DNA from: Bacteroidales bacterium Phil12
GTDB lineage: Bacteria; Bacteroidota; Bacteroidia; Bacteroidales; P3
NCBI GenBank assembly: GCA_002633275.1
Contig: NWBO01000101.1
Span: forward strand, 1 to 48,245
Direction: 5' to 3'
DNA length: 48,245 bases
The number at the start of each line of letters is the position of its first letter. Position 1 is the first letter of the stretch. This document shows positions 5,037 to 46,734 of this stretch, in pieces. Position numbers and translations under genes: made by a program. The notes beneath the pieces are model-generated. The model made no database searches, was not told the DNA's origin, and saw nothing but the letters and a program-made list of their open reading frames with translations.

Positions 5037-5141
5037 AAAAAATTAGTGTCCATAACTATTTTACTGGTTATGGACACTATTTTACTGATGTTTAACACTA
5101 ATTTAATAATGTCTCATATTATTTTAGTGAATGATATTACC
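5037..5141. repeat. 21-bp periodic repeat array, five units
   Basis: Five consecutive 21-base units (starting at 5037, 5058, 5079, 5100 and 5121) share an A/T-TTT tract followed by a core related to ATGTTTAACACT. Units 1 and 2 are inverted relative to each other and form a perfect 13-bp hairpin, TAGTGTCCATAAC (5044-5056) with GTTATGGACACTA (5067-5079). The array lies in the 455-base gap 4819-5273, between the start of the giant T9SS gene and the end of the PepSY-like gene. The rest of that gap holds one promoter, one terminator and AT-rich sequence without other visible features. Confidence 0.8.
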
Positions 5142-5187
5142 AACAAAATAAAGACTTTAATTGAAATTGGAGTTTATTGAAACAAAA

Positions 5188-5219
5188 AAGAGTTGTGAGC
5201 AAAAATACTCACAACCCTT
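5188..5219 (-). terminator. Rho-independent terminator of the PepSY-like gene
   Basis: The arms AAGAGTTGTGAG (5188-5199) and CTCACAACCCTT (5208-5219) pair with one mismatch around an 8-base loop. On the minus strand the hairpin is followed by a T-rich tail (TTTTTTG). It lies about 55 bases past the stop at 5274. Confidence 0.8.
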
Positions 5220-5273
5220 ATACTTAAATTCTTGTGGTCGAAAGACCGAAAAATTATTTCACATTCAAGAAAA

Positions 5274-5726
5274 TTATTCTATAACTTTATTGAAATTTCC
5301 AGTAAGACTGAATTGCAAATTCTTTACATCATCTTTTTTTGCAATTCTAACCTCATAGCATTTAACTTTTTTGATGTCCGTTATATACGCCTTTTGAATT
5401 TTATAACCGGCATAATTGGTTTTAATGTAGTCGGTAATATCCGTTGGAAGGTATTCCATTGGTATTACATAATACATACCGGTTGAAGTTTGGGTAAATT
5501 TAACGATACAATCGTTGTCATTATCGTTTTTGTAGTTCGCAAAATACGTAGTGCTGTCCGCCATTTCCCAACGAACATCTTTCGCAGCTGCGTGATGCTT
5601 TACAAAATCTTTCAAATATCTTTCAGGAACATCTCTTTGGTCAATAGATTTGTAAGGAGACTTTTTTGACGTACCGCAAGAAATCATAACAAGGGCAACT
5701 GCCACTAAAATAAAATATCTTTTCAT
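5274..5726 (-). CDS. PepSY-like lipoprotein
   Basis: This 150-residue protein starts with a lipoprotein signal peptide: the hydrophobic segment ends in 'VMISCGTSKK', giving a lipobox with Cys17. The mature part resembles the small Bacteroidota PepSY-like family, with one or two repeats of the form 'VRWEMADSTTYFANYKN' and 'AYITDIKKVKCYEVRIAKK', in which a peptidase-inhibitor-like beta sheet is expected. Its function is unknown; binding of peptides or a cell-envelope inhibitor role is only suggested by the fold family. It is a single gene with a -7 element at 5825-5832 and its own terminator. Confidence 0.65.
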   Translation of the reverse strand: MKRYFILVAVALVMISCGTSKKSPYKSIDQRDVPERYLKDFVKHHAAAKDVRWEMADSTTYFANYKNDNDNDCIVKFTQTSTGMYYVIPMEYLPTDITDYIKTNYAGYKIQKAYITDIKKVKCYEVRIAKKDDVKNLQFSLTGNFNKVIE

Positions 5727-5824
5727 TGCTTATAATTTTTTTTCGTTTTCTTTTTTCCCATAAATGGATTGCGTTTTCCAACAACCAACCTCAACGTGAT
5801 AATATCATTGATTGGTATCGTTGG

Positions 5825-5832
5825 CAAAAGTA
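5825..5832 (-). promoter_or_regulatory. Promoter -7 element of the PepSY-like gene
   Basis: The minus strand reads TACTTTTG, a full match to TAnnTTTG, about 100 bases upstream of the start codon at 5726. No clear -33 TTTG is visible. Confidence 0.5.
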
Positions 5833-5860
5833 CAACAATAGTTTGAAATAGAAAAATATT

Positions 5861-6649
5861 CTAAATAATATTTTTGAAAATATTTTTCAAATCCAAGATA
5901 CCAAACAATGACAAAGCCGTTAAAACAATAACGCAAATGATAATAATTTTAACGAAGCCATTACCTTTTTTAAGTGCATAATGTGCTGCGATATAAGAAC
6001 CTATCACATTACCAATGGAATGTATCAGCCCATAAACCCAATATTTCGTTTCTATATCCCCTCTTAAAAAAAACACTCCCATTGCAACTATTGTATATAT
6101 AAACATCAATGTGTTTTTTGCCGCCGTTGTCTGCAACAAATCATATCCCAAAACACTACCTACAACCGCTATCAACAAAAATCCCGTACCCGTTTGCACA
6201 AATCCTCCATAAAAACCGGTAATCAAAAACAAAGGAAATGTTATAAGATATGTCTTGGTGTTAAATTCTCTTGGTGCTGTTTGTTTTGCTTTATTATCCA
6301 CAACAAGAAATATAACCATAAGCAGCAAAACTATTGCAAAACAAATATCAAATACTCTCTCATCGATATTGACTGCCACCAAACTACCGACAAAAGTACC
6401 TATGATTATAGGCAATGAATACAAAAAAATATGTTTATAATTGATTATATGCTTTCGATAAAACATTGCACTTGCAAAACCATTTTGAATAAGCACTCCA
6501 ACTCTGTTTATCGCATTTGTTGTCTGTGCAGGAATACCAAGAGCAAGATAAAGGGCAATGGATATTGTAGTTCCACCGGCAGATAATGTGTTAATAAAGC
6601 CTACAATCACCCCTGAAATAATCAATATTGCTATTAAAGTCAAAGTCAT
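5861..6649 (-). CDS. TauE/SafE family sulfite/anion permease
   Basis: This 262-residue integral membrane protein has about eight hydrophobic segments and the two-fold repeat of the TauE/SafE family. The N-terminal hallmark is 'GFINTLSAGGTTISIALYL' and the second-half counterpart is 'GFYGGFVQTGTGFLLIAVVG'. Members export or import sulfite, sulfoacetate or related organosulfur anions across the inner membrane; the substrate cannot be read from this sequence. Its length is normal for the family. No sulfur-metabolism gene is adjacent, so context does not help. It lies alone between the PepSY-like gene and the terminator of the sigma-factor cluster. Confidence 0.85.
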   Translation of the reverse strand: MTLTLIAILIISGVIVGFINTLSAGGTTISIALYLALGIPAQTTNAINRVGVLIQNGFASAMFYRKHIINYKHIFLYSLPIIIGTFVGSLVAVNIDERVFDICFAIVLLLMVIFLVVDNKAKQTAPREFNTKTYLITFPLFLITGFYGGFVQTGTGFLLIAVVGSVLGYDLLQTTAAKNTLMFIYTIVAMGVFFLRGDIETKYWVYGLIHSIGNVIGSYIAAHYALKKGNGFVKIIIICVIVLTALSLFGILDLKNIFKNII

Positions 6650-6728
6650 ATTCTTATTTTTGTTTCAACCAAAGATTGTTTTGATAGATGTTATACGCAA
6701 ATTTTTTATTAAGGTTAGAAATAAAAAA

Positions 6729-6752
6729 TAGCACCACGAGAATGTGGTGCTA
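6729..6752 (-). terminator. Terminator of the sigma-factor cluster
   Basis: A perfect 9-bp stem, TAGCACCAC (6729-6737) with GTGGTGCTA (6744-6752), surrounds the loop GAGAAT. On the minus strand it is followed by TTTTTTATT. It lies about 70 bases downstream of the stop at 6824. Confidence 0.85.
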
Positions 6753-6823
6753 CCCAAAAAATAAATTAATTATGAAACGAAATCAAAAAGATTTGCTATT
6801 TTTTTTAATGTTATGTTTATTTT

Positions 6824-7372
6824 TTATTTTGTTTTCTTGTTTCTGTCAATTTCTTTGCCACCGTCTTTACTTCCGCACGCATTTTCTTTTGAGTTTTTAT
6901 TACAAGGAACTTCTGTCATCATCTTTCTCATAAATACTTTCTCCAAAGCGTGCAGTTTCAATATCTTTTGCAATGGCATAACGGATTTGTATTCATTTAT
7001 ATATCGTTCTTCTATTTCGCTCAACTGCCGACCCGTTGCGCAATGCACATCCAACAATTTCAACAACACTGTATCGGAAAATGTATCGTTCCCGCATTTA
7101 TCGAATTGGCGTGGAGACATACCTGTTAAGTCATAAAAAGTTTTTGCTTCTCTCAAATGGCAATCCAAAATCTCTTTGTCGTATCGTTTATACACCACCC
7201 AAAATTTCTGCATCTGATTTGCATCGAAATTCAACTCCTTTTGCAAAAATTCGTACTTACATTGCATCATTTTATCATGTACCGCGTTCCATTCCGCCTC
7301 ATCTAACTGGGCAAATGTCGGTATTGTCAAACAACACATCAAAAATAATATGAACAATCTCATTATTCTCAT
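6824..7372 (-). CDS. Secreted helical protein of an ECF sigma locus
   Basis: This 182-residue protein has a signal peptide (residues 1-21, ending 'TIPTFAQ') and a largely helical, charged mature part rich in Lys, Glu and Met, e.g. 'KFWVVYKRYDKEILDCHLREA'. Its size, helical character and place after an ECF sigma factor and a single-TM protein recall the periplasmic CpxP/Spy-like or metal-sensor proteins often encoded last in such Bacteroidota operons. I see no clear LTxxQ motif, so this is inference. The tail is very polar, with two Cys ('NKNSKENACGSKDGGKE'). It ends the transcription unit at the terminator 6729-6752. Confidence 0.6.
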   Translation of the reverse strand: MRIMRLFILFLMCCLTIPTFAQLDEAEWNAVHDKMMQCKYEFLQKELNFDANQMQKFWVVYKRYDKEILDCHLREAKTFYDLTGMSPRQFDKCGNDTFSDTVLLKLLDVHCATGRQLSEIEERYINEYKSVMPLQKILKLHALEKVFMRKMMTEVPCNKNSKENACGSKDGGKEIDRNKKTK

Positions 7373-7458
7373 TTTTTATTCCTACTATATTTTAATTTTT
7401 ATAACTTCTCGTTTTATCAGCCTATCACACCAATTTTATAACGTCAGTCTTTATTTTT

Positions 7459-7923
7459 TTATTGTACGAAATAATTATAGACTAATTCGTAATTATCTTC
7501 ATTAAGATAGTTCTGTAAGAAATCCAATTCCTCTTCCGTAAAACGTAGTGTGTTTGCCTGAGATTGTTTAGGTCTTGTGGTTTTATAGCTTGCTTTTACG
7601 ATGTTTTCCTCAGTAACGACAGGTTTTTCTGCTTGGGCTATAATTTCTTCTGTCGATTCAATGGTAAAAGCATCTGCGTTTTTCAAAGTATCTTTCAACA
7701 TTTGTACCTTTTGTTCTGTCAAAGCAATATCTTTTGAACTATCTTGCAATGAATATATGCCCGCACTGACAACAACTGCAATACCGACAAGACAACAAGA
7801 CAAGTTGCGAACCAATCTTATCGCCTGTCTTTTGTGATACTTTCTTATTACCCTATCTTCAATACTATTAAAATAATTGTCGGGTAATGTATCATTTGTT
7901 TTTAATATGTCGTCCTTATCCAT
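7459..7923 (-). CDS. Putative membrane-anchored anti-sigma factor
   Basis: This 154-residue protein has a cytoplasmic N-terminus of about 35 residues containing 'LPDNYFNSIEDRVIRKYHKRQ', one membrane segment at about residues 38-58 ('LSCCLVGIAVVVSAGIYSL'), and a polar exported C-terminus. It follows the ECF sigma gene by 128 bases. In Bacteroidota, a short N-terminal cytosolic helix, one TM and a gene placed just after sigma are usual for anti-sigma factors, though no zinc-binding HxxxCxxC motif is present. Its role is inferred from context and topology. Confidence 0.55.
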   Translation of the reverse strand: MDKDDILKTNDTLPDNYFNSIEDRVIRKYHKRQAIRLVRNLSCCLVGIAVVVSAGIYSLQDSSKDIALTEQKVQMLKDTLKNADAFTIESTEEIIAQAEKPVVTEENIVKASYKTTRPKQSQANTLRFTEEELDFLQNYLNEDNYELVYNYFVQ

Positions 7924-8051
7924 ATTAATTATATATTTAATTTCTTCTCTAATTTTTTTATTTTTATTAAAAAAAACTTCACGGCTCTGCCATATTTGTC
8001 TGTGCGGATAGCACTTTTTCGCCCCCTCAATTTATTTGACAAGAAAAAAGA

Positions 8052-8603
8052 TTAAAAGTTTAATTCGTATGATGCTAAAATTTCTTTTATTTTTTTCTCT
8101 GCTATGTGATACGATGTTTTTAAGGCACTTTCGGTTGTTTGCATTATCTGTTCCATTTCTTTGAACGGAACATTATCGTAATACCTCATCACAAAGACTG
8201 CACGTTGTTTGTCTGGCAATGTGGATATGGCTTTTTCCATAAGTCTTTTGATTGTTTCACTGTCGATATTTGAATTGTGAGCTACCTTTTCTTCTGTAAG
8301 CAATTCCAATCCTACCGAAGCAAGAGATTTTTGTGCTGCTTTGGAATTTAGAAAATTTATTGTCTCGTTATGTGCTATTCTATAAATCCAAGTGGTCAAA
8401 GAACTATCGCCTTTGAACGAAGATATATTACGGAAAACCTTTATATACACTTCTTGCAACAAATCATCGGCATCTTCATGAGAAAAAACCATACGACGTA
8501 TCTGCCAATAGAGACGTTCTTTTGTCGAACAGACAAGTTCTCTAAAACCTTGCTCTTTGGTTTTGCGATTTTTTATTAAACTAAGTATCCGTGTATCGTC
8601 CAT
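8052..8603 (-). CDS. ECF-type RNA polymerase sigma factor
   Basis: This 183-residue sigma-70 family protein directs RNA polymerase to a specific promoter set. Region 2 is visible at about residues 20-90 ('EDADDLLQEVYIKVFRNISSF' and 'TTWIYRIAHNETINFL'), and region 4 at about 125-175 ('LPDKQRAVFVMRYYDNVPFKEMEQIMQTTESALKTSYHIAEKKIKE'-type helix-turn-helix). No region 3 is present, as expected for ECF factors. I place the start at the ATG at 8603; an in-frame TTG three codons upstream (8612) is less likely. It lies 33 bases after anmK and upstream of a putative anti-sigma factor and a secreted protein, so it probably controls an envelope stress or metal response. Confidence 0.88.
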   Translation of the reverse strand: MDDTRILSLIKNRKTKEQGFRELVCSTKERLYWQIRRMVFSHEDADDLLQEVYIKVFRNISSFKGDSSLTTWIYRIAHNETINFLNSKAAQKSLASVGLELLTEEKVAHNSNIDSETIKRLMEKAISTLPDKQRAVFVMRYYDNVPFKEMEQIMQTTESALKTSYHIAEKKIKEILASYELNF

Positions 8604-8636
8604 AATCGGCAAATGTTCTTTCGATTTGCAAATAAT

Positions 8637-9695
8637 TTAATCTACCCACGTTGCAACAAGTCCAGAACAACTGTCTTGCTTTGCACCCGTAACTTCTTTC
8701 AAACAATTTATCTCTTTTCTAATTCTACGTAAGCCCAAAAAAGCAAATATCAAGGCTTCTTTGTATTCTATTATCTCGTTATCGGGTACGATTATCTTGT
8801 AATCGGTCTTTGATTTTATGGCATTTAATATATAATTGTTGTAAGCCCCTCCTCCTGTTATAAAAGTATCTCCTACTATCTGTTCTGCAATTTGAGTTGC
8901 TATATGTTCGCTATATGTTGCTATCTTATCTTCTACGCTTATATCATATTTATCTATTATCGGCAGCACATCGCTTTTAACAAATTCTTTTGCCAATGAA
9001 TGTTTTTTCTTATTTATATAATAAGGTATGGAATTTAATTCATTCAACAAATTCTTGTTTATTGTATTCGCTTTTGCTATTTCTCCATTTTTGTCATAAT
9101 TCAAACCTATCCTTTCGCACAACAGGTTCAAAACGATATTGGACGGACATATATCAAAAGCGATACGTTTATTGTCTTTATCGTATGAAATATTTGAAAA
9201 ACCACCGATATTCAAACAGCAAGGATACTGACCGAACAACAGTTTATCTCCTATCGGCACCAACGGAGCGCCTTGTCCGCCCAAAGCCACATCAAGAGAA
9301 CGAAAATCGCCTATCGTTGTTATGTGCGTCTGCGAGGCAATAGCGTTAATATCTCCTATTTGCAAAGTAAAACCTTTGCTTGGCTGATGAAAGATTGTTT
9401 GTCCGTGAGAAGCGATAAAATCAACGGTTAAATTGTTTTCATCTAAAAATTTTCGAGCCTGCTTTCCGAAAAAATGCCCTAAATACATAGAAAAATGCGC
9501 AAGTTGTTCTCCGCTCATAGTCTCACAGTCTATTATTGCTTGACGTAATTCGGACGTATAGCCAATGGTCGAAGTTTTAATTATGCGATAATCTATCTTA
9601 TTATTCGCATCTTCCGAAATAGAAAACTCCACCGCTGCCATATCCAATCCGTCAAGAGAAGTACCTGACATCATTCCAAGTATTTTATATAACAT
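8637..9695 (-). CDS. anmK: Anhydro-N-acetylmuramic acid kinase
   Basis: AnmK phosphorylates and opens 1,6-anhydro-MurNAc to MurNAc-6-phosphate in cytosolic peptidoglycan recycling. The 352-residue length fits the Bacteroidota form. The N-terminal ATP-binding motif 'GMMSGTSLDGLDMAAVEF' is intact, as are 'DFIASHGQTIFHQP', 'QIGDINAIA', 'GDFRSLDVALGGQGAPLVP' and 'CCLNIGGFSNISY', plus the C-terminal adenosine-site motif 'DTFITGGGAYNNY'. It lies between murF (upstream, separated only by a 21-bp repeat array) and the sigma factor, so wall synthesis, wall recycling and an envelope sigma factor are linked in one direction. Confidence 0.95.
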   Translation of the reverse strand: MLYKILGMMSGTSLDGLDMAAVEFSISEDANNKIDYRIIKTSTIGYTSELRQAIIDCETMSGEQLAHFSMYLGHFFGKQARKFLDENNLTVDFIASHGQTIFHQPSKGFTLQIGDINAIASQTHITTIGDFRSLDVALGGQGAPLVPIGDKLLFGQYPCCLNIGGFSNISYDKDNKRIAFDICPSNIVLNLLCERIGLNYDKNGEIAKANTINKNLLNELNSIPYYINKKKHSLAKEFVKSDVLPIIDKYDISVEDKIATYSEHIATQIAEQIVGDTFITGGGAYNNYILNAIKSKTDYKIIVPDNEIIEYKEALIFAFLGLRRIRKEINCLKEVTGAKQDSCSGLVATWVD

Positions 9696-9700
9696 TTTTC

Positions 9701-9784
9701 GTTTTATTGGTGTTTAATATTAATTTTCTAATTACTCACACTATTTTTTTAATCACTTACACTATTTTTCTCTTATCACATATC
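9701..9784. repeat. 21-bp periodic array filling the murF-anmK spacer, four units
   Basis: Four 21-base units (from 9701, 9722, 9743 and 9764) abut the murF stop codon exactly and end five bases before the anmK ATG. Units 2 and 3 end in CACACT and TACACT and all carry an A/T-TTT tract. The spacer therefore contains nothing except repeat units. Confidence 0.75.
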
Positions 9785-11101
9785 CTATAACGCATCTTGC
9801 AATATCTCCATTTGAGTAGCCCTCGAACCTTTTATAAGAATCAAAGCGTTGGTTGTATTTTGCTTTTGAAGAAATTCTTTGGCTTTTGAAGAAGTTGCAA
9901 ACCAAAGGCAGTTTTCTTTATCAGCAAATCCCTTGTACTCTTCTCCGACAAAAACAGCCTGAGTAAGGTTCATATTTTTTATAATTCTCGATATAGCCTC
10001 GTGTTCGCTTTGACTAACCTTTCCTAATTCCTTCATAGAACCTATAAAAACCCTTTTATCCTTGTAACCACCTATCTTATCAAACGCTTCCAACGCAAAA
10101 CGACAAGAAGACGGGTTGGCATTATAGCAATCCAATATCAAAGTGTTTTTATCGGTCTTTTTGACTTGCGAACGATTGTTGGTAGGAATGTAACTCTCAA
10201 TAGCATGCTTTATTTTAGTAATATCAACTCCGAAAGATAAGCCGACAGTAACCGCTGCCAAGATATTATAACAATTGTATGTGCCGACAAGATGAGAACA
10301 AATCTTTTCGCCACATACTTCGATGCTTGCAAAAGTTTTATCGGCATTAATGATATTGCCTTGTGTAGCGGCAAAGGTTTTCAATGAATATGTAACAGAA
10401 TTTTCAGGCTTATTGCTCAACAGGTTTTCGTCATCGATATTGACAAAAGCCTTGCCATTGTTCTGTTCAATGTATCTAAACAATTCTGTCTTGGTTTTGA
10501 TAACTCCCTCAAACGAACCGAAACCTTCAATGTGGGCAGTACCGATATTTGTCAAGATTGCAATATTAGGATTGGCTATGCGGCATAATTCGTCTATATC
10601 TCCGATATGCGATGCTCCCATTTCGATTATCGCTATTTGGCAATCTTTTTTCAGAGATAACAAGGTCAAAGGCACACCAATCTGATTATTCAAATTACCA
10701 GCCGTTGCACCAACTTTGTATGTAGAAGAAAGGACTTCATACATAAGTTCCTTTGTCGTAGTCTTACCGTTAGTTCCGCTAATACCGATAAAAGGAATAG
10801 TAAAAGTGTCTCTGTAATATCGGGCAAACTTCTGCAAAAAAATCAAAGAGTCTTCAACAAGCAAAGTCTTATCGTTTATGTAGTAGTCTTTGTTGTCGAT
10901 AACCACCAAACTCGCACCGCTTTCCAAAGCAATCTTGGCAAAAATATTTCCATCGGTATGCTCGCCTTTCAATGCCACGAAAATCGTCCCTTGTTTAACT
11001 TTGCGAGAATCTATCGTAACATCATAACTCTGACAAAAGACATTAAAAACTTCCGACAACAATTCGTTGGTTATTTTCCTAACTTGTGCAATATGTTCCA
11101 T
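9785..11101 (-). CDS. murF: UDP-MurNAc-tripeptide--D-Ala-D-Ala ligase
   Basis: MurF adds D-Ala-D-Ala to UDP-MurNAc-tripeptide in the cytoplasm, the last soluble step of peptidoglycan precursor synthesis. The Mur ligase domains are in order: N-terminal UDP-binding part ('DSRKVKQGTIFVALKGEHTDG'), central ATP-binding part with 'GISGTNGKTTTKELM' (P-loop at about 109-116) and 'EMGASHIGDIDELC', and C-terminal domain with 'DCYNANPSS' and 'FIGSMKELGK'. I choose the ATG at 11101 (438 residues), preceded by GGAG at good spacing; a GTG eight codons upstream is also in frame. The gene overlaps the end of the glycosyltransferase by 31 bases, suggesting translational coupling. Confidence 0.95.
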   Translation of the reverse strand: MEHIAQVRKITNELLSEVFNVFCQSYDVTIDSRKVKQGTIFVALKGEHTDGNIFAKIALESGASLVVIDNKDYYINDKTLLVEDSLIFLQKFARYYRDTFTIPFIGISGTNGKTTTKELMYEVLSSTYKVGATAGNLNNQIGVPLTLLSLKKDCQIAIIEMGASHIGDIDELCRIANPNIAILTNIGTAHIEGFGSFEGVIKTKTELFRYIEQNNGKAFVNIDDENLLSNKPENSVTYSLKTFAATQGNIINADKTFASIEVCGEKICSHLVGTYNCYNILAAVTVGLSFGVDITKIKHAIESYIPTNNRSQVKKTDKNTLILDCYNANPSSCRFALEAFDKIGGYKDKRVFIGSMKELGKVSQSEHEAISRIIKNMNLTQAVFVGEEYKGFADKENCLWFATSSKAKEFLQKQNTTNALILIKGSRATQMEILQDAL

Positions 11102-12198: not shown

Positions 12199-12297
12199 GT
12201 CTTATAAGTTTTTTAAGTTATTTGATTTTGCCCGCAAATATTTTCATTTTTGCATCAAAAGAAAATTTTGCGGTAAGTTCCCTTGATTTTCAAGTCG

Positions 12298-12305
12298 CAA
12301 AGTTA
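12298..12305 (-). promoter_or_regulatory. Promoter -7 element upstream of the glycosyltransferase
   Basis: The minus strand reads TAACTTTG (TAnnTTTG) about 100 bases upstream of the TTG start. No convincing -33 element is visible. Confidence 0.45.
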
Positions 12306-12434: not shown

Positions 12435-12497
12435 AAAAAATCAGTGTTAAACATTAGCGAAATAGTGTTAAACATCAGCTAACGGATGTTTAACACT
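12435..12497. repeat. 21-bp periodic array with perfect 17-bp inverted repeat, three units
   Basis: Units begin at 12435, 12456 and 12477. The second and third are in opposite orientation and give a perfect 17-bp stem, AAATAGTGTTAAACATC (12460-12476) with its complement at 12485-12501, around the 8-base loop AGCTAACG. A weaker unit may precede at 12414. The array lies in the 463-base divergent gap 12199-12661, which otherwise holds the two outward promoters and no other visible feature. Confidence 0.8.
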
Positions 12498-12602
12498 ATT
12501 TTTATGAATACCGATAAGAATTTTTTGAATAATACTCCGCCAAAATTTTCTTCAATATTGCGTTGAAAATCACGTCAATTTAAGATTTCATTCAAAAAGC
12601 CT

Positions 12603-20845: not shown

Positions 20846-20971
20846 AATTTCATGTAATATGACATCAAAAAATCAGTATCTCACATTAATAAATTAGTTT
20901 CATTGATTAATAAATTAATCTCTCACACTATTTTTCTGGTTTCACTAATCATTTTTTCGATATGATTGCAC
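20846..20971. repeat. 21-bp periodic array, five to six units
   Basis: Units begin at 20867, 20888, 20909, 20930 and 20951, with a weaker one at 20846. They keep the 21-base period and the A/T-TTT tract, but the cores diverge (CTCACATT, CATTGATT, TCACACT). The array lies between the terminator of the surface protein and the metK promoter, in the 610-base gap 20719-21328. Confidence 0.75.
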
Positions 20972-21164: not shown

Positions 21165-21328
21165 CAACACGAATTGTGGACAGATTTGAATTGATTGCAA
21201 CCACTATAAAAGAATGCTAAAACAAGTTATCTTTGCTTTAAGATTCGTTTATTTGAAGTAAAATTTTCAATTCTTATTCATTTCCACTGGATTTTATAAT
21301 TAATAACTATTAAAAAACAGTAAAAGAA
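21165..21328 (+). other. Long metK 5' leader
   Basis: About 160 bases separate the promoter from the metK ATG, long for this window. I see a weak GTGG/CCAC pairing near the 5' end but no terminator-like hairpin and no SAM riboswitch class that I can recognise. It holds no coding region. Confidence 0.4.
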
Positions 21329-22591
21329 ATGTCAAGATTTATCACATCGGAATCAGTGTCAGAAGGACACCCGGACAAAATTGCCGATCAAATTTCAGAC
21401 GCATTATTAGATGAATTTCTAAGGAATGACCCCGACTCTCGGGTTGCTTGCGAAACATTGGTAACCACAGGTATGGTTATTTTAAGCGGTGAAGTCAAAA
21501 GCGAGAGTTATGTAGATGTTCAAACCGTTGCTCGTAATGTTATAAGAAAAATAGGCTACACAAAAGGAGAATATCAATTCTCTGCCGATTCTTGTGGAGT
21601 GCTTTCGTCAATTCACGAGCAAAGCCCTGATATTAGTCAAGGCGTCGATAGAGAAAAGCCCGAAGAACAAGGGGCTGGCGACCAAGGAATGATGTTTGGT
21701 TATGCAAGTAAAGACACAGAGGATTATATGCCGTTGCCATTGGTGTTGGCTCACCAGATTGTATATGAACTTGCGCAGATAAGAAAAGAGGGAATATTGA
21801 TGCCATATTTGCGTCCCGATTCCAAAGCACAAGTTACGGTGGAATATGATGACAACAACAATCCTATTGCACTCAACACAATAGTTATTTCAACCCAACA
21901 CGACGAAGATGTATCTTTGAAACAGATTGAAAAGGATATGCGACTTATATTACTTCCTCGTATTGCGAGCAAGCAACGTAAGAAAGAGATAAAAGAAATG
22001 TTTGCAAAGGAATTTCGTTTGCTTGTCAATCCTACGGGTAAATTTGTCATAGGAGGACCTCATGGCGATACTGGACTTACGGGCAGAAAAATTATTGTGG
22101 ATACCTACGGAGGCAAAGGTTCTCATGGCGGTGGAGCATTTAGCGGCAAAGACCCAAGTAAAGTAGATAGAAGTGCAGCATATGCTATGCGACACATGGC
22201 AAAGAATATGGTTGCAGCAGGTATTTGCGATGAAGTTTCGGTTCAAGTGGCTTACGCCATAGGTGTTGCAGAACCTGTGGGCTTGTATGTAGATACTTTC
22301 GGTACTAATCACACGAAAATGAGCGAAGGTGAAATTGCTAAAAAATTATTGGAGATATTCGATTTACGACCATACGCAATTATCAACAGATTCGGACTAA
22401 AAAATCCTATTTACTCTCCTACCGCTGCCTACGGTCATTTCGGAAGAACTCCTTACTCCAAAGAAATTGAAGTTATAGAAAACGGCAAAAAGGTTTGCAA
22501 GAAAGTAGATTTCTATCCTTGGGAAAAATTAGACTATGTTGATACTTTGAAAAAGGAATTTAATATCTATCAAACGGAATTTAAGTTGTAA
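21329..22591 (+). CDS. metK: S-adenosylmethionine synthase
   Basis: MetK makes S-adenosylmethionine from ATP and methionine in the cytoplasm and supplies the rRNA methylases seen elsewhere in the window. The 420-residue sequence starts with '[22 protein letters not shown]', has the ATP-site hexapeptide '[11 protein letters not shown]', and the phosphate-binding '[21 protein letters not shown]' and '[27 protein letters not shown]'. These are intact, so the enzyme should be active. It is a single gene with its own promoter, a long leader and a terminator at 22620. Confidence 0.97.
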
Positions 22592-24732: not shown

Positions 24733-24879
24733 AAATTTTGTCAATCACTACCGAAGTTTTTCTTTTGTGATATGAGAAAAATAATGTTTAATACTAATTT
24801 TTTAATGTTTAACACTAATTTGCCAATGTTTAACACTAATTTTCTAATATCTGAAACTATTTTAACGATAAGACTTAAC
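24733..24879. repeat. 21-bp periodic array, five clear and two weak units
   Basis: Clear units start at 24775, 24796, 24817, 24838 and 24859; the second and third share the exact core AATGTTTAACACT, as does the first with one change. Two weaker units may precede (24733 and 24754). It fills much of the 322-base gap 24614-24935. I see nothing else in that gap. Confidence 0.85.
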
Positions 24880-31983: not shown

Positions 31984-32489
31984 TATTCTTCAATTTTTAT
32001 TGTATTATACTTACGATGTTGCTTTTCTATATTATGCGTAAAAGCATAATAATAGTAATAAACCAAAAACAGAAGAATTAACATCAAATCTCCTATGGCA
32101 AACATACGATAACCAAGAAAAAATATCGGTGTCAAAAATTGGAACACTTTTGCAATAGTATAAAAGAATAATCCCCATTTATAACCTCTAAAAAGCAGAT
32201 GACAGCCATACAATATCGCCAACCCTGACAAGAAACATATTAAATACATCATTCTATTGGCGGTAACAAAAAACAGAAGGTTTTCTTTATAAAAATAAAG
32301 GCTCTCGGGAAAAGATGTTGAAGTGATAAATTCGGTAAGATATGTTTTATAAAAAAGCATAGCACCGTTAAACAATGTAAAAAATAAACCAACCAATGCC
32401 GACACGACCACCATAAGACGAAAGAAAACACTTGTCTTTATTGACTTGTCGAATATTCGTATTATTGTTCGTTTTAACCTTAAATCCAT
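31983..32489 (-). CDS. Uncharacterised four-TM membrane protein
   Basis: I do not recognise this 168-residue protein. It has a short basic N-terminus ('LRLKRTIIRIFDKSIKT') and four predicted membrane segments, around residues 24-46, 77-97, 102-122 and 126-148, ending in a charged tail ('NIEKQHRKYNTIKIEE'). The ATG is directly preceded by a 21-bp repeat array, so the whole upstream region is repetitive and shows no TAnnTTTG promoter. It overlaps the RsmI-like gene by one base and heads the run to rarA and the giant surface protein. Confidence 0.65.
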   Translation of the reverse strand: MDLRLKRTIIRIFDKSIKTSVFFRLMVVVSALVGLFFTLFNGAMLFYKTYLTEFITSTSFPESLYFYKENLLFFVTANRMMYLICFLSGLAILYGCHLLFRGYKWGLFFYTIAKVFQFLTPIFFLGYRMFAIGDLMLILLFLVYYYYYAFTHNIEKQHRKYNTIKIEE

Positions 32490-32594
32490 ATGAGTGATTA
32501 GTTTTTCAATATGAGTAATTAATAAATTAGTGTTAATGATTAGTTTTCTAATGTGAGTGATTAGTAAATTAGTGTGAGTGATTATTTTTTTGAA
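32490..32594. repeat. 21-bp periodic array abutting a start codon, five units
   Basis: Units start at 32490, 32511, 32532, 32553 and 32574, in the opposite orientation to most arrays, for example the run GTGAGTGATTAG. The array begins on the base next to the ATG of the membrane protein at 32489 and ends at the hairpin 32593-32632. Confidence 0.85.
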
Positions 32595-32632
32595 ATCACT
32601 TCATTTGTTATTGAAAACAAATGAAGTGATTT
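32593..32632. terminator. Hairpin downstream of the hexosaminidase, probable terminator
   Basis: AAATCACTTCATTTGTT (32593-32609) and its perfect complement (32616-32632) form a 17-bp stem around ATTGAA. It lies 27 bases past the hexosaminidase stop. A proper T tail is absent on the minus strand, so the terminator call is moderate. Confidence 0.5.
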
Positions 32633-32658
32633 TGAGGCCACCTTTCGGTTGTTTGAAA

Positions 32659-39735: not shown

Positions 39736-39819
39736 CGAAAAATATAATCACTTTTCGCAAAATTAGTGTTAAACACTAATCGAATAATGTTTAACACTGT
39801 TTCACCAATGTTAAACAAA
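39736..39819. repeat. 21-bp periodic array, three clear and one weak unit
   Basis: Units start at 39757, 39778 and 39799, preceded by a weaker unit at 39736. The first two end in TTAAACACT and TTTAACACT. The array abuts the terminator hairpin of rplS. Confidence 0.8.
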
Positions 39820-39820
39820 A

Positions 39821-39853
39821 AATATCGGCTGTCTTTGACGGACAACCGATATT
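39821..39853 (-). terminator. Terminator of the thrS-rplS translation cluster
   Basis: AATATCGGCTGTC (39821-39833) and GACAACCGATATT (39841-39853) pair with one mismatch around TTTGACG. On the minus strand the stem runs into TTTTTTG, 28 bases past the rplS stop. Confidence 0.85.
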
Positions 39854-39881
39854 CAGTTTTTTGTGCTTTTCTAAGAAAGAA

Positions 39882-40244: not shown

Positions 40245-40276
40245 GATTCTTTTCTCTCTCTTTTTAGGTTACACTA

Positions 40277-40624
40277 CTATTTTTTAACTGTTTTAACGAT
40301 TGCAGTGAAAATTTCCGGGTGGTTCATAGCGAAGTCAGCCAAAACTTTACGATTTAATTCAATGTTGTTTTTGTGCAACAATCCCATGAAAACAGAATAA
40401 GATATTTCGTTTTGACGGCAAGCCGCATTGATACGGTTAATCCACAAAGCACGAAATTCTCTTTTCTTTACTTTACGGTCTCTAAACGCATAAGTCTGAC
40501 CTTTTTCCCATTTGTTTTTTGCAACGGTCCAAACGTTTTTACCTCTACCCCAATAACCTTTTGTACGGTTAAGGATTTTTTTTCTACGCTGTCTTGAAGC
40601 AACAGCATTTACACTTCTTGGCAT
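40277..40624 (-). CDS. rplT: 50S ribosomal protein L20
   Basis: L20 binds 23S rRNA early in 50S assembly and, in other bacteria, represses the infC-rpmI-rplT mRNA. The 115-residue sequence shows '[31 protein letters not shown]' and '[43 protein letters not shown]' in register. It lies 108 bases after rpmI; that spacer has no hairpin I can recognise as an L20 operator. Confidence 0.97.
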
Positions 40625-40732
40625 TTTTTAATTTGTTTTGTTTTTCATATCAGCGGCAAAAAATTTTTCTGCACTTAATACTGATACAATGGTTAATACT
40701 TTTGTTTTACCTTTTTGTGCTTTTGGTTGGTA

Positions 40733-40927
40733 CTATCTTCCCAACATTTCGTTCAACACCTTAGCATCAGCACTTGATACTGTTGTGTAAGCACACAATG
40801 CTCTTTTTCTCTTATTTGTTTTCTTTGTCAAAATGTGAGAATGATAAGCATGTCTTCTTTTCAATTTACCTGACGCAGTTACTGTAAATCTTTTCTTTAC
40901 AGATGCTCTGGTTTTTGTTTTTGGCAT
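40733..40927 (-). CDS. rpmI: 50S ribosomal protein L35
   Basis: L35 is a small basic 50S protein. The 64-residue sequence has the family start '[20 protein letters not shown]' and '[22 protein letters not shown]'. It is the usual neighbour of rplT and infC; about 105 bases separate it from infC and 108 bases from rplT. Confidence 0.97.
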
Positions 40928-41031
40928 TTTAATGTCCTCTTTTTTTGTGTTAATAAATCTATTTACCTATATATAAAAACGTTTCAACAACGTTGATATA
41001 TCTTATTTATTGTAAAAAACGCGATTTTATT

Positions 41032-41586
41032 TTATTTTTTCTTAATCGGAGTGATAATCATAAGCATTTTCTTTCCCTCCAAACGAGGCATTTGCTCAGG
41101 CTTTCCGTATTCCAACAATGCTTCGGCAAATTTCAAAAGTTTTTGCTCGCCGTGTTCTTTATAAACTATTGTCCTTCCCTTAAAGAATACATCTACCTTA
41201 ACTTTATTACCTTCCGACAAGAAACGAATCGCATGTTTCAACTTAAATTCAAAATCGTGATCGTCTGTTTGCGGTCCAAGTCTTATCTCTTTAACCAACA
41301 TTTTTGAAGACTTAGCCTTTCGCTCTTTATCTTTCTTTTTTTGTTCGTAAAGAAACTTTTGGTAATTCATAACTTTGCATACGGGCGGATTAACATTTGG
41401 CGAAATCATTACCAAATCCATTCCCTGCTCATTAGCAAAAGCCAACGCTTCTTTAATACTACAAATTTTAGGTTCAAAACCCTCGCCGACAACTCTAACT
41501 ATCGGCTCTTTAATGTACTCGTTTATCAAGTGAGGCATCTCCTTTTTCACCGAACCTCTACCACGAGATTGATTTGTTGTTTCTAT
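41032..41586 (-). CDS. infC: Translation initiation factor IF-3, probable AUA start
   Basis: IF-3 binds the 30S subunit and checks start codons and initiator tRNA. The N-domain ('RVVGEGFEPKICSIKEALAFANEQGMDLVMISP'), the lysine-rich linker ('FLYEQKKKDKERKAKSSKM') and the C-domain ('IRLGPQTDDHDFEFKLKHAIRFL', 'KVKVDVFFKGRTIVYKEHGEQKLL') are intact. There is no good ATG: the nearest in-frame ATG is inside the conserved N-terminus. A GTG at 41550 is possible, but 12 codons further upstream an AUA (41586-41584) stands seven bases after AAGGAGG and one codon-length past an in-frame stop. The extension it adds, 'ETTNQSRGRGS', resembles the basic N-terminal tail of other Bacteroidota IF-3. The protein would have 184 residues. 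Confidence 0.9.
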   Translation of the reverse strand: METTNQSRGRGSVKKEMPHLINEYIKEPIVRVVGEGFEPKICSIKEALAFANEQGMDLVMISPNVNPPVCKVMNYQKFLYEQKKKDKERKAKSSKMLVKEIRLGPQTDDHDFEFKLKHAIRFLSEGNKVKVDVFFKGRTIVYKEHGEQKLLKFAEALLEYGKPEQMPRLEGKKMLMIITPIKKK

Positions 41587-41600
41587 AACTTATCCTCCTT
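41584..41600 (-). promoter_or_regulatory. Strong Shine-Dalgarno site and non-canonical AUA start of infC
   Basis: The minus strand reads AAGGAGG (41600-41594), seven bases, then ATA (41586-41584). A full SD is rare among genes in this window, so its ideal spacing to an AUA, with the stop codon TAA lying between, decides the start. Confidence 0.7.
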
Positions 41601-41625
41601 ATTAATTTAGTTTATAATTATTCTC

Positions 41626-43560
41626 TTATTCCAATTCTTTATTAACTTCGGCTTGTACCAATTTAGCAAAGTCTTCTATTTTCATAGTACCTATATCGCC
41701 TTTCAAATGCTCACGGACAGACACCATACCATCGGCTTCTTCCTTTTCTCCAACGATTAACATATAACGAATTTTCTTGATTTCGGCATCACGAATCTTT
41801 TTACCGGTTTTTTCGTTTCTATTGTCAATACTACCCCTAAGGTCTTCCATATTCAAAGCCTCTTGAACTTTCTTTGCATATTGTTCGTACTTTTCACTTA
41901 TCGGCAATATGATATATTGGTCAGGAGTAAGCCACAATGGAAATTCTCCTGCTGTATGTTCCAACAAAACAGCGACAAATCTCTCCATTGAACCGAATGG
42001 TGCGCGGTGAATCATTACAGGGCGATGTTTTTGATTATCCGCTCCAATGTATTCCAAATTGAAACGCTCAGGAAGGTTATAATCCACCTGTATTGTTCCC
42101 AATTGCCAACTTCTACCTAAGGCATCTTTAACCATAAAGTCTAACTTAGGACCATAAAAAGCAGCTTCGCCTGTTTCTGTAATAGTTTTAAGACCTTTTT
42201 CGGCAGCACTCTCAATAATGGCTCTTTCGGCTTTATCCCAAACTTCATCACTACCTATATATTTCTCTTTATTATTAGGGTCTCTCAACGAAATTTGAGC
42301 CGTAAATTCGTTAAATTTAAGTGTCTTGAATATATAAAGAACTATATCTATAACCTTACAGAACTCTTCTTTTATTTGGTCTTGCGTGCAGAATATGTGA
42401 GCATCGTCTTGCGTAAATGAACGAACACGTGTCAAACCATGTAACTCTCCACTCATCTCATAACGATAAACCGTACCAAATTCAGCGACACGATAAGGCA
42501 AATCCTTGTATGATTTAGGGAACAAACGATAAATTTCGCAGTGATGAGGACAATTCATCGGCTTCAACATATACTCTTCTCCCTCTTGTGGAGTATGTAT
42601 AGGTTGGAATGAATCCTTACCATATTTCTGAAAATGTCCCGATGTCTTATATAAATTAACGTTACCTATATGTGGAGTCATTACTTGAACATATCCATAC
42701 TGTTTTTGAACCTTTGCCAAGAAATTCTCCAATCTTTTTCTCAATTCCGTTCCCTTAGGCAACCACAAAGGCAAACCTTGTCCAACGTTCTGAGAAAAAG
42801 CAAACAGCTCCATTTCCTTACCTAATTTTCTATGATCTCTCTTCTTTGCTTCTTCCAACATAAGAAGATATTCGTCCAATTCTTTTTTCTTAGGGAATGA
42901 TATTGCATACAAACGAGTCAATTGTTTGTTATGCTCATCGCCTCTCCAATATGCACCGGCCAATGATGTTATCTTAAAAGCCTTAATTGGAGAAAAATCC
43001 ATTAAGTGAGGACCACGACACAAATCCGTAAAATCGCCACTTTCATAGAAAGTTATCTTACCGTCTTCTAAATCTTTGATAAGTTCAACTTTATATGTCT
43101 CGTTTCTTTTGCTAAAATAATCCAAAGCGTCTTGTTTTGAAACTTCTTTACGAACAAGTTTTACGCCTTGTTTTACTATTTCAGCCATTTTCTTTTCAAT
43201 CTTCGGAAAATCTTCTTCTCTTAAAACATCTTCGCCGAAATCTATATCATAATAGAAACCTCTTTCTATGGCAGGACCTATACCAAACTTTGCATTCGGA
43301 TATAAAGCCTGAACAGCAGATGCCAACAAATGGGCTGAGGAATGCCAAAATGTATGCTTTCCGTCTTCATCATTCCAAGTGTTTAGTTTCAAATTACAGT
43401 CAGCAGTAAGCGGAGTCAATAAGTCTTTAATTTCCCCGTCAATAGTTGCAGACAACACATTTCTTGCCAAACCTTCGCTTATCGATTTAGCAACGTCCAA
43501 TGCATTAACGCCTTCATTGTACTGTTTTACACTTCCGTCCGGTAAAGTTACATTTATCAT
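41626..43560 (-). CDS. thrS: Threonine--tRNA ligase
   Basis: ThrS charges tRNA-Thr and edits Ser-tRNA. The 644-residue protein has the N-terminal TGS domain (1-60, '[24 protein letters not shown]'), the editing domain with '[35 protein letters not shown]', class II motif 2 '[16 protein letters not shown]', motif 3 '[24 protein letters not shown]' and the C-terminal anticodon-binding domain. It heads the cluster with infC and the ribosomal proteins; infC follows after about 39 bases. The leader is about 70 bases long. Confidence 0.97.
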
Positions 43561-43629
43561 TGTCGTATTCGTATCTTAAAATTCCTTTATAATAACAGGC
43601 TCTTTTTGAGTCTTGTTCAAAACAGTTTG

Positions 43630-43658
43630 CAAAAATACAATTTTTTTCATTACAACAA
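43630..43658 (-). promoter_or_regulatory. thrS promoter
   Basis: On the minus strand TTG (43658-43656) and TATTTTTG (43637-43630) are 18 bases apart, about 70 bases upstream of the ATG. It diverges from the stress-protein promoter. Confidence 0.65.
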
Positions 43659-43729
43659 TAAATATTCTTACTTTTTTTTCAATTTTTTATTTTTTCAATA
43701 TTTTTTACCGTATTTTTTTCAAAAATGAT

Positions 43730-43760
43730 TTTGCAGTTTTCTCTTTTTTTCATACTTTTG
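43730..43760 (+). promoter_or_regulatory. Promoter of the universal stress protein gene
   Basis: TTG (43731-43733) and TACTTTTG (43753-43760) are 19 bases apart, and the ATG at 43797 follows 36 bases later. This argues against an upstream start at 43725, which would overlap the promoter. Confidence 0.75.
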
Positions 43761-43796
43761 CAAAAATTAATTCACAAACCTTTAATAATTTGTCTT

Positions 43797-44621
43797 ATGA
43801 ACAAGGAAATAATCGTAGGTATAGATTTCTCAAACACATCTTTAACAGCTTTGCGTCTTGCTGTCGATATAGCAAATCGTACCAATTCATCTATTCTTAT
43901 GCTTTGGGTTAAGACTGCTGAAAAAGACCCTATGGAAGCAGAAGCAATATTGAAAGACTTATGCAAATCTTTTGCATCAGCCCTTAACGGCAAAGAAATT
44001 CAATACAAAGTTGCCGAAGGTAAAAAAGTCCATTCAACAATAAACAAAATCGTCAAAGAACGAAAGTCCTATTTGCTTGTAATCGGCGCTAACGGTAACA
44101 GTGGTTTCGACGAAAGGTTTGCAGGTGCCAATGCCTTCAAAACTTTGAACGATTGCCCAATACCCGTATTGCTGTTAAGAGAGAATTTCAATTTCTGCAA
44201 ACCTTTGAAAAACATTATTCTTCCTATCGACTCCACGCCCGACACCCGTCAAAAAGTGCCTTGGACAATGGAATTTGCAAGAATGTTCCCTAATTCGTGC
44301 ATAAGAGTTTTAGGATTGCAGTCCTACGCAGGTAAAACCATAAGAGAGGAAGTAGAAAAATATATCACAAGTATAGACACCCTTCTTACTCAGAAAGGAT
44401 TAAATCACACGATAGAGATTAGAGATTCCGACAATTCAACTCTTACCACTTTGGATTATGCGAAAGAAGTCGATGCCGATTTAATCGTAATTATGACCGA
44501 GCAAGAAAAAACATTAAGCAATCTATTCTTCCTTGGTCCGTATGCACAACAGATGATTAATCTATCCCCTTATCCTGTTTTAACCATTGCCCCGAAAGAC
44601 ATCAATGGTGCGAGCAGATAA
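43797..44621 (+). CDS. Universal stress protein, tandem UspA domains
   Basis: This 274-residue cytosolic protein carries two Usp domains, each able to bind ATP. The first starts 'NKEIIVGIDFSNTSLTALRLAVDIANRT' and ends with 'YLLVIGANGNSGFDERFAGANAFKTLNDCPIPVLLLRE'. The second starts 'LKNIILPIDSTPDTRQKVPWTMEFARMF' and has 'DADLIVIMTEQEKTLSNLFFLGPYAQQMINLSPYPVLTIAPK'. The first keeps the G-2x-G-9x-G(S/N)-like ATP motif in part. I take the ATG at 43797, which begins the conserved domain. The SPOR-like gene follows after 18 bases. Confidence 0.9.
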   Translation: MNKEIIVGIDFSNTSLTALRLAVDIANRTNSSILMLWVKTAEKDPMEAEAILKDLCKSFASALNGKEIQYKVAEGKKVHSTINKIVKERKSYLLVIGANGNSGFDERFAGANAFKTLNDCPIPVLLLRENFNFCKPLKNIILPIDSTPDTRQKVPWTMEFARMFPNSCIRVLGLQSYAGKTIREEVEKYITSIDTLLTQKGLNHTIEIRDSDNSTLTTLDYAKEVDADLIVIMTEQEKTLSNLFFLGPYAQQMINLSPYPVLTIAPKDINGASR

Positions 44622-44639
44622 GATAGTGTTTTCCATAGA

Positions 44640-45101
44640 ATGAATAGAGTAATTAAAATATTAATCTCACTGATTATTTTGCTAACGTTAAACACTAATG
44701 GAACGGTTTTCGCACAAGTGGAAGTCATTGCCGACGGCAGGTTGCAGACCATACTTGAAAAGCATGTGCAGTATAACCGAATGGCAAAAACAATCAAAGG
44801 TTTTAGAATAAAAGTTGCAACATTTACCGAAGAAGGGGCAAAGACAAAAGCGTTTTCTTTGAAAAACGATTTAATGGAGATATTTCCCGACCAAAGAACA
44901 TACGTTATCTTTGACGAACCTTATTTTATCGTAAAGATTGGCGACTATCCTTCGCGTTTAGATGCATACGCAACACTTATGCAAATCAAACCTCAGATAA
45001 AAACCGCTCTTATTATTCAAGATTATATCAACACTCCGACAATAAACGAGGACGAACTTTCAATCCCCGAATATTTTGAAGAGGAATTGGAAGATGATTA
45101 A
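44640..45101 (+). CDS. Small exported SPOR-like protein
   Basis: This 153-residue protein has a signal peptide (about 1-25, ending 'TVFAQ') and a region resembling a SPOR domain: 'GFRIKVATFTEEGAKTKAFSLKNDLMEIFPDQRTYVIFDEPYFIVKIGDYPSRLDAYATL' in register. SPOR domains bind denuded peptidoglycan at the septum. The C-terminus is acidic. The hydrophobic core of the signal peptide is encoded by a 21-bp repeat unit (44676-44696). It follows the stress-protein gene by 18 bases and precedes the dipeptidase by 56, so they may form an operon. Confidence 0.75.
   Translation: MNRVIKILISLIILLTLNTNGTVFAQVEVIADGRLQTILEKHVQYNRMAKTIKGFRIKVATFTEEGAKTKAFSLKNDLMEIFPDQRTYVIFDEPYFIVKIGDYPSRLDAYATLMQIKPQIKTALIIQDYINTPTINEDELSIPEYFEEELEDD
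44655..44696 (+). repeat. 21-bp repeat units inside the signal-peptide coding sequence
   Basis: Two consecutive 21-base units (44655-44675 and 44676-44696) fit the intergenic consensus. The second ends in GTTAAACACT and encodes ILLTLNT, in the same frame and orientation as the unit in the OmpA domain. A weaker unit may precede (44634) and overlap the start codon. Confidence 0.6.
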
Positions 45102-45157
45102 TCATATACTTACATCGACAAAATTTTTACAGACAATAAATAAAAAACAATAATATC

Positions 45158-46528
45158 ATGGACATTAAAAGTTATATAGTAGAAAATAAAGACAGATTTT
45201 TGGACGAGTTGTTCTCATTAATCCGTATTCCGTCCATATCTTCTCTAAGCGAACACAAAGAAGATATGGTTAAATGCGCCAATCGTTGGAAAGAATTGAT
45301 TCTTCAAGCAGGTGCGGACAAATGCGAGGTTATGCCTACCGAAGGAAATCCTGTCGTTTATGCCGAACGCATAATAGATGCAAAGTTTCCGACAGTTTTG
45401 GTGTATGGCCACTATGACGTTATGCCTACCGACCCTATCGACGAATGGAAAACAAAACCTTTTGAACCTGTAATCAAAGACGACATTATTTGGGCTCGCG
45501 GTGCAGACGATGACAAAGGACAATCCTTTATGCAAGCAAAAGCCTTTGAGTATTTGAACAAAACCAATCAATTGAAATGTAACGTCAAATTTATGCTTGA
45601 AGGCGAAGAAGAGATTGGTTCTCCAAGTCTTTACGGCTTTTGCGAAAAGAATAAAGAACTTTTGAAAGCGGACGTCATACTTGTTTCCGACACTTCTATG
45701 ATTGGAGCGGACGTTCCGTCCATTACGGCAGGTTTGCGTGGTCTTGGCTATATAGAAGTCAAAGTTACAGGACCTAAGGCCGATTTACATTCGGGTATAT
45801 ACGGCGGAGCGGTTGCCAACCCTATCAATATATTGTGTAGAATTATTTCTCAACTTCAAGACGAGGCTACCAACAAATGCACCGTTACCGATTTTTACAA
45901 AGAAGTTATCAACTTATCCCAAGAAGAAAGAGATTTAATGGCAAAAGCACCGTTCAGTGAGAAAGATTATCTTGAAGTAACAGGTTCTCCTGCTTTGTTC
46001 GGCGAAGAGGGATTTTCTACAATAGAGCGCACGGGAATACGTCCGTCTTTCGATGTGTGCGGAATTTGGGGAGGTTATACGGGAGAAGGTGCAAAGACGA
46101 TTATACCTTCCACTGCTCACGCAAAAATATCTTTTCGTTTGGTTCCCGACCAAGATTTCAACGTAATAACAGAACGTGTTGCCCAATACATCAAACAGAT
46201 TGCTCCGTCTTGTGTCAATGTGGAGGTTACGCCATTGCACGGAGGCTACGCATATGTTTCTCCTTTGGATTTACCTGCATACCAAGCCGCCGAAAAAGCA
46301 TATATGCGTACATACGGCAAACAGCCTATACCTACACGCAGCGGCGGAAGTATTCCAATCGTTGCAGGCTTTGAAAGAATATTGAGAACGAAGTCGATAC
46401 TTATGGGCTTCGGCTTATCGAGTGATGCAATACACTCTCCGAACGAGAATTATCCTCTACGCCAATTCTTCAACGGCATAGAAACAATTTCTTATTTCTA
46501 CGAAGAGTACGCCGAATTAATGAAATAA
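45158..46528 (+). CDS. M20-family dipeptidase
   Basis: This 456-residue metallopeptidase probably cleaves dipeptides in the cytoplasm. Zinc ligands are visible in 'VLVYGHYDVMPTDP' (His and Asp), 'WARGADDDKGQS' (bridging Asp), 'EGEEEIGSPSL' (catalytic Glu and ligand) and the C-terminal 'SSDAIHSPNENY' (His). The inserted dimerisation domain contains 'GLRGLGYIEVKVTGPKADLHSGIYGGAVANP'. The length and motif order match the Bacteroidota M20 dipeptidase (peptidase M20/M25/M40) group. Confidence 0.93.
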   Translation: MDIKSYIVENKDRFLDELFSLIRIPSISSLSEHKEDMVKCANRWKELILQAGADKCEVMPTEGNPVVYAERIIDAKFPTVLVYGHYDVMPTDPIDEWKTKPFEPVIKDDIIWARGADDDKGQSFMQAKAFEYLNKTNQLKCNVKFMLEGEEEIGSPSLYGFCEKNKELLKADVILVSDTSMIGADVPSITAGLRGLGYIEVKVTGPKADLHSGIYGGAVANPINILCRIISQLQDEATNKCTVTDFYKEVINLSQEERDLMAKAPFSEKDYLEVTGSPALFGEEGFSTIERTGIRPSFDVCGIWGGYTGEGAKTIIPSTAHAKISFRLVPDQDFNVITERVAQYIKQIAPSCVNVEVTPLHGGYAYVSPLDLPAYQAAEKAYMRTYGKQPIPTRSGGSIPIVAGFERILRTKSILMGFGLSSDAIHSPNENYPLRQFFNGIETISYFYEEYAELMK

Positions 46529-46551
46529 GGCGTTCATATATCCAAACACCA

Positions 46552-46592
46552 AATAACGGCAATATCTGTATCGGATACTGCCGTTATTGTTT
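46552..46592 (+). terminator. Terminator of the dipeptidase gene
   Basis: AATAACGGCA (46552-46561) and TGCCGTTATT (46579-46588) pair, with an inner palindrome (GTATCGGATAC), followed by GTTTTC. It lies 23 bases past the stop. Confidence 0.85.
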
Positions 46593-46650
46593 TCTTTACT
46601 TACTTGCCATTTTTCAAAATCCGCCTTGCCAAAACACAGCACCCGCAATC

Positions 46651-46734
46651 GTCTCACCGGTGTTTAACACTATTTTATTAATGTTAAACACTAATTTGCT
46701 AATGTCCCACACTAATTCTGTCGTTTCACCATAA
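46651..46734. repeat. 21-bp periodic array, three clear and one weak unit
   Basis: Units start at 46651, 46672, 46693 and 46714. The first three end in TTTAACACT, TTAAACACT and CCCACACT. The array lies between two terminators of convergent genes. Confidence 0.85.

Follow-up and report, generated by a model that had tools for sequence, protein, structure and literature searches.

What keeps a family of short DNA units at an exact 21-bp spacing while their letters change? The question is raised by the window, a stretch of 48,245 nucleotides (bases 1-48245 of contig C101) from the 2.96-Mb draft genome of the gut bacterium Bacteroidales bacterium Phil12 (G000), in which an earlier note, made from the sequence alone, described eight intergenic arrays with an exact 21-bp period. 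All eight are recovered by a 21-bp profile. We analyzed them in a G000 sample comprising the window and 20 further stretches (447,062 bases, about 15% of 2.96 Mb) and in a genus set of 14 genomes (G000-G013) that includes the sister genome G005; stretches of relatives are labelled with L-numbers. We put a probability of roughly 0.45 on the reading that each array is a comb of operator-like dyads to which a putative protein binds as a dimer, and that such combs have spread and been homogenised in individual lineages.

Units were called at profile matches of at least 6 bits, two or more units form an array, and neighbouring pairs are intergenic units within 140 bp of each other. Because the profile was trained on the same G000 DNA that it scanned, the unit count arises partly by construction; spacing was no input to the profile. 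The scan yielded 216 intergenic units, compared to a mean of 9.4 and a maximum of 14 in 20 dinucleotide shuffles, which makes the observation larger than first stated. The 136 neighbouring pairs sit almost exclusively in one helical register, as in operator arrays, with 132 at 21 bp, three at 42 bp and one at 38 bp; the shuffles contain no pair at 21 bp, and the period thus withstands the comparison with shuffled DNA. An initial fit, masked slightly differently, called 221 units, with 135 of 139 pairs at 21 bp, and 53 more units in predicted open reading frames (ORFs). A lag of 21 gives a signal in 8 of the window's 24 intergenic segments, other lags from 15 to 29 do so in 0-2 segments each, and at lag 21 the mean over 100 dinucleotide shuffles is 0.14 and the maximum one. 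A separate signal at 65/66 bp in the spacing counts is caused by a clustered regularly interspaced short palindromic repeats (CRISPR) array on contig C101 beyond the window (L021 about 1482-3806), whose 36-bp repeat contains ATCTACATGAGTAGAAATT and resembles Cas12a-type repeats. The 21-bp arrays are themselves not CRISPR, as had been stated at the outset: their units are contiguous and variable, with no unique spacers.

The arrays are built from a 21-bp dyad with ATGTT[T]AACACT at its centre; positions are numbered from the bracketed middle T. That the unit is a dyad follows from inverted units occupying the same lattice as forward ones: pairs on the 21-bp step comprise 51 in --, 44 in ++, 22 in -+ and 18 in +- orientation. 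The arrays are therefore dyad lattices with inverted members and not direct repeats alone, nor the product of plain tandem duplication. Three positions are near-invariant (98-99%), namely T at -4 and A at +2 and +4, while positions -3 to +1 vary by word. Among 221 units, the most frequent words at -3 to +3 are GTTTAAC (67), CACTCAC (20), GTTTAAT (17) and CATTAAC (12), so that the common core originally proposed, ATGTTTAACACT, is indeed the commonest word but one of many. Clusters of three units account for 37 of 82, and in many arrays every unit points one way. The arms of 204 units are symmetric column by column, yet their complementarity does not exceed expectation except at -1/+1, a pattern more in line with a pair of half-sites on DNA than with conservation of a hairpin. 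A hairpin was considered and rejected on these grounds: predicted RNA folding is stronger than in other intergenic DNA, but the arms show no covariation outside the centre.

These features are consistent with dimer sites lined up in helix phase as a comb: the step is fixed while the letters change, the dyads are symmetric although their arms do not pair, and a few positions are invariant. Conservation of geometry over sequence suggests either a protein-binding comb or a small mobile element. As a protein-binding comb, the 21-bp unit (22 bp in some relatives) would pair two half-sites of similar sequence, one on either side of a centre word that varies, each dyad bound by a dimer of the putative protein and neighbouring dimers packed along one helix face. 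The two-turn step would then be fixed because the dimers pack on that face, and the letters would be free to change along with the protein. Arrays would be born as small inserts near gene ends, with exchange between units keeping those of one genome alike; that they might insulate or locally organise the DNA close to gene ends is a guess. Protein binding and cooperative action are both inferred. Iterons and helix-phased operator arrays likewise place protein sites of about 21-22 bp on one helix face, at one or a few replicon loci and with a known binding protein, whereas the arrays here share the phasing but are dispersed and their binding protein is putative. DNA uptake sequences occur in high copy number and in dialects that differ between species, as these arrays do; the units here, however, vary greatly, keep strict phase and are found mostly between genes.

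The words of the arrays form a lineage-specific dialect. Counting both strands throughout, ATGTTTAACACT occurs 166 times in G000 and 165 times in G005, compared to 0-1 copies in each of the 12 other genus members. Allowing up to one mismatch, TTAAAACGGCGTTTTA occurs 221 times in G001, 177 in G004, 45 in G006, 13 in G013 and 0-2 times in the others, and TAAAACAAAGAGATAGAA occurs 380 times in G007, twice in G012 and nowhere else in the set; AAAAACATATGTTTTTT is found 275 times in G013 and not in the others. The patterns TTAAAACGGCGTTTTA and AAAAACATATGTTTTTT are palindromic or nearly so, and a single site may therefore have entered their counts twice, once per strand. Dialect and descent may disagree: G001 and G004 have words in common despite a protein identity of 67.0 (64 pairs), lower than that of G001 to G000 and G005 (73.5 over 26 pairs and 73.7 over 44 pairs; the gene sets differ).

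Spacing, by contrast with sequence, is retained across these species, in keeping with the first description. With a G007 profile, 21 bp separates 59 of 64 neighbouring pairs, and every combination of orientations is represented. Profiles of G001 and G012 give inverted pairs at 19 and 23 bp (or 15 and 27), distances that sum to 42 and thus recentre onto one 21-bp lattice, and G013 has a looser 22-bp lattice. In a wider, profile-free survey of spacing counts at 21 plus 22 bp in nine genus members, eight exceed all 20 mononucleotide shuffles, with a strong excess in G000, G001, G005, G007, G012 and G013 and a weak one in G003 (11 against a maximum of 5) and G010 (11 against 7); the 2.6 kb sampled from G011 held only an ordinary-looking 42-bp repeat. 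The lattices of G004 and G006 emerged from the junction comparison described below, and the genus sampling left out G002, G008 and G009. Six genomes from other genera of the family (G014, G016, G017, G018, G020 and G024) also exceed shuffles, whereas G015, G021 and G023 show no 21+22 excess and G022 gave no noncoding DNA. Since inspection showed that ordinary tandem repeats account for at least part of the signal in G024 and G014, and that the remaining genomes are marginal, we claim the lattice for the genus only. In a metagenome-assembled genome (MAG) of an uncultured Parabacteroides sp., L101 about 5142-5340 holds 22-bp dyad units CGGACAACAGCTGTTGTCCG, and GGACAACAGCTG occurs 25 times over both strands together, compared to 0-2 times in five other genomes tested. 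We treat this MAG and the other genera as leads.

At conserved gene junctions, arrays are present or absent by lineage. The array-bearing region 32490-32658 measures 2, 2, 8 and 25 bp between the same genes in G001, G012, G007 and G013, respectively, none with an array; because four relatives lack an array at this tight junction, gain in the G000 lineage is probably the simpler reading. The genes flanking 9696-9784 adjoin without a gap in G001 and G013, and L019 15619-15759 corresponds to 16 bp between the same genes in G012; in the opposite case, a 37-bp G000 junction is a 230-bp array region in G012. A score-based lattice test over 49 conserved junctions in six genomes assigned arrays to G000 only at eight (four distinct regions), to the relative only at three, to both at one and to neither at 37, although by eye two of the three relative-only junctions hold no dyad arrays (L152, L185). 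Between G001 and G004, 37 conserved junctions include none shared, seven G001-only (some without dyad arrays) and two G004-only, and G005 and G001 both score at 2 of 29. Score hits that are not dyad arrays by eye in this second set are L177 1098, L178 2003, L152 and L181, and the hit at L177 7210 is a different, longer element.

Such lineage-specific presence would fit a short mobile or quickly born element. The foremost alternative, which we consider unlikely though worth weighing, is a non-autonomous mobile element resembling repetitive extragenic palindromic (REP) sequences and bacterial interspersed mosaic elements (BIMEs) or a miniature inverted-repeat transposable element (MITE), with the comb as the site bound by a putative transposase or nuclease, which would copy arrays into further intergenic positions. 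High copy number and species-specific words, as in REPs, speak for it along with the junction data. G001 also carries a second, longer element (e.g., L146 3038 and L145 17852) in which outer inverted ends GCCGCCCC...GGGGCGGC surround three 22-bp AAAAAAACTGTTTTTTT-type repeats. In the sister genome, however, which is syntenic with G000 at 95% identity, 18 of the 24 arrays on the G000 contig can be mapped and all 18 lie at the same place, leaving no sister-specific array among them. The expectation of conserved positions in relatives thus holds between the sisters and fails between species, even in tight junctions. The original statement that mobile-element ends are absent fares similarly: no common terminal motif, and no shared motif of any kind beyond the lattice, was found in 130 array ends, but arrays are present or absent by lineage.

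The account in PMC2817692 describes REP/BIME elements as short, palindromic, mostly extragenic, present in more than 100 copies, species-specific, clustered with alternating orientation and associated with REP-associated tyrosine transposases (RAYTs). The arrays here are similarly high-copy (166 exact cores) and extragenic (10 of 76 arrays lie in predicted ORFs), but they differ from the elements described there in their strict 21-bp lattice, their very variable units and a consensus without the GTAG head. Complementary arm changes, by which such palindromes are kept, do not exceed expectation in the 204 units except at -1/+1, and a search for RAYT (PF01797) returned no match in all 14 genus genomes, some drafts being incomplete, compared to matches in 9 of the 25 genomes searched. 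Nor did viral contigs (one exact pattern) or plasmids and phages (one array query) yield a match, although near records may be absent from those collections. According to PMC4596501, the BrickBuilt MITE of Porphyromonas gingivalis consists of imperfect 23-nt direct repeats, is intergenic and species-specific with 19 elements per genome, and has a leader and a tail with IS5-like terminal repeats. The arrays resemble BrickBuilt as described there in being intergenic, species-specific Bacteroidales repeats of about two turns, but they comprise hundreds of units, include inverted members and lack common ends, terminal inverted repeats among them. The empty junctions that bear on a MITE-like target site duplication are all distant ones. 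The comb and mobile readings do not exclude each other, because a comb can serve as the site at which its own mover binds.

We regard as improbable an ordinary, functionless minisatellite in which slippage and gene conversion maintain uniformity. Among the 18 mapped array regions, one is exactly 21 bp shorter in G005, as slippage would produce, but 15 agree within 2 bp in length and two lie at alignment breaks. The two genomes differ by 8.7% in arrays (1,155 sites), compared to 7.2% in other intergenic DNA and 4.8% in coding DNA, and adjacent differences are more frequent in arrays (28 of 101) than in other intergenic DNA (126 of 675). In 53 units compared, no change occurs at -4 or +4, while each of the three centre positions has 9-10. 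Whole centre words seem to be replaced (TTA against GAG or CCC against TTA, for example): of 13 units with a centre change, six changed at all three positions, three at two and four at one. These block changes could be conversion tracts; more generally, either exchange among units or selection acting on entire words could have produced them. Units are barely more alike within arrays than between them (7.65 vs 7.24 of 11 core positions), unlike the head-to-tail copies of a minisatellite; inverted units share the lattice, and relatives keep the step with other words.

Intrinsic DNA curvature, in which A/T tracts every two turns bend the DNA with no specific protein and neutral words, is quite improbable as a full account. 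The bending that the earlier note proposed is borne out to the extent that a wedge model with assumed angles predicts more curvature in 65 G000 arrays, with an end-to-end/contour ratio of 0.895 compared to 0.954 for shuffled DNA and 0.938 for 263 other intergenic pieces. Raised predicted curvature may contribute, but curvature leaves the dyad symmetry, the discrete word sets and the absence of changes at -4/+4 unexplained.

The arrays lie mostly between genes. Besides the 10 of 76 arrays, predicted ORFs contain 53 of 274 single units, so the exclusively intergenic location first envisaged holds for most of them but not all. For the statistics that follow, the gene list omits predicted ORFs shorter than 150 amino acids that overlap an array, and only regions of at least 90 bp are counted. 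Arrays occur in 63 of these 168 intergenic regions of the G000 sample: 40 of 101 between tandem genes, 14 of 30 between convergent genes and 9 of 37 between divergent genes. Transcription terminators or RNA-level stems at gene ends are nevertheless highly improbable: the convergent share, the closeness of arrays in tandem pairs to the stop upstream (median distance 64 bp, compared to about 128 bp to the following start) and a mean RNA folding z of -2.27 (60 of 65 arrays, both strands) compared to -0.80 (60 other intergenic pieces) favor them, but arrays also stand in divergent regions, their arms do not covary outside the centre and many have all units in one direction.

Several observations weigh against the dimer-site comb. 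Both the protein that would bind it and the binding itself are putative. The arrays are lineage-specific and missing at many orthologous junctions, so that the genus does not depend on any particular array at its site, and their slightly faster divergence than other intergenic DNA confines constraint to a few positions. Predicted curvature alone is also raised in arrays, as is the strength of RNA folding.

Each window array has 2-5 clear units, with weaker lattice traces running on outward, and not the three to seven originally counted. The first array (5041..5124; -+++) has four dyad units at 5041, 5062, 5083 and 5104, spaced 21 bp apart, and lies at the same place in G005. It belongs to the only array-containing pair with similarity beyond the lattice among the matches listed, a duplicated surface-protein gene: window positions about 4390-5131 and L035 3653-4394 are two paralogous gene ends that are 94-97% identical through the upstream region including the array, with similarity ending at its far end. 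The array at 9705..9767 (three units, +++) is the one whose flanking genes abut in G001 and G013. Arrays at 12439..12501 (three units, --+), 24779..24862 (four, ++++) and 39761..39802 (two, -+) are all found in G005. The five-unit array at 32483..32587 (-----) has one exact 21-bp unit fewer in G005, and the three-unit array at 46655..46717 (+++) has different centre words there. The array at 20871..20933 (three units, --+) has a counterpart intergenic region in G001 that holds an array with other words. It lies upstream of a SAM-II riboswitch (21170-21230, + strand, 60.8 bits) and metK (21329-22591); the riboswitch is the sole Rfam match in the window at the gathering threshold, and no match falls inside the arrays. 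A weak pair of units (44659..44700; -+; 11.2 and 9.9 bits), also present in G005, lies within a 153-amino-acid predicted ORF that has no Pfam match.

Other features of this DNA are recorded here for completeness. The best named match of the window MetK is from a yak-rectum Bacteroidales MAG (71% identity; the closest records may be absent from the database), and some window proteins carry type IX secretion tails. A dispersed element of about 200-230 bp (L036 2702-2933, L020 9795-10010 and L034 257-460) has inverted ends like TAACGTGAGT, which resemble the MITE239 ends listed in PMC4596501. A repeat of about 650 bp with 77-80% identity and a run of about ten G occurs at L017 2917-3541, L019 11186-11834 and L027 7706-8355.

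Tentatively, the arrays could represent an unnamed class of chromosomal element whose two-turn step is kept across the genus, and perhaps in other Bacteroidales, while its words are rewritten in each lineage together with a DNA-binding protein. The family went unrecognised in the earlier note, and the open-access papers among the matches listed contain no named family or description of such lattices, making its novelty provisional. Because the words vary, repeat catalogues keyed to sequence could miss lattices of this kind. If they are mobile, the arrays would be abundant bacterial elements without a known mover. If the combs bind protein, they would amount to a naturally occurring set of rapidly diverging protein-DNA codes carried by an unchanging scaffold, in many copies per genome, in which the evolution of recognition specificity would be directly testable.

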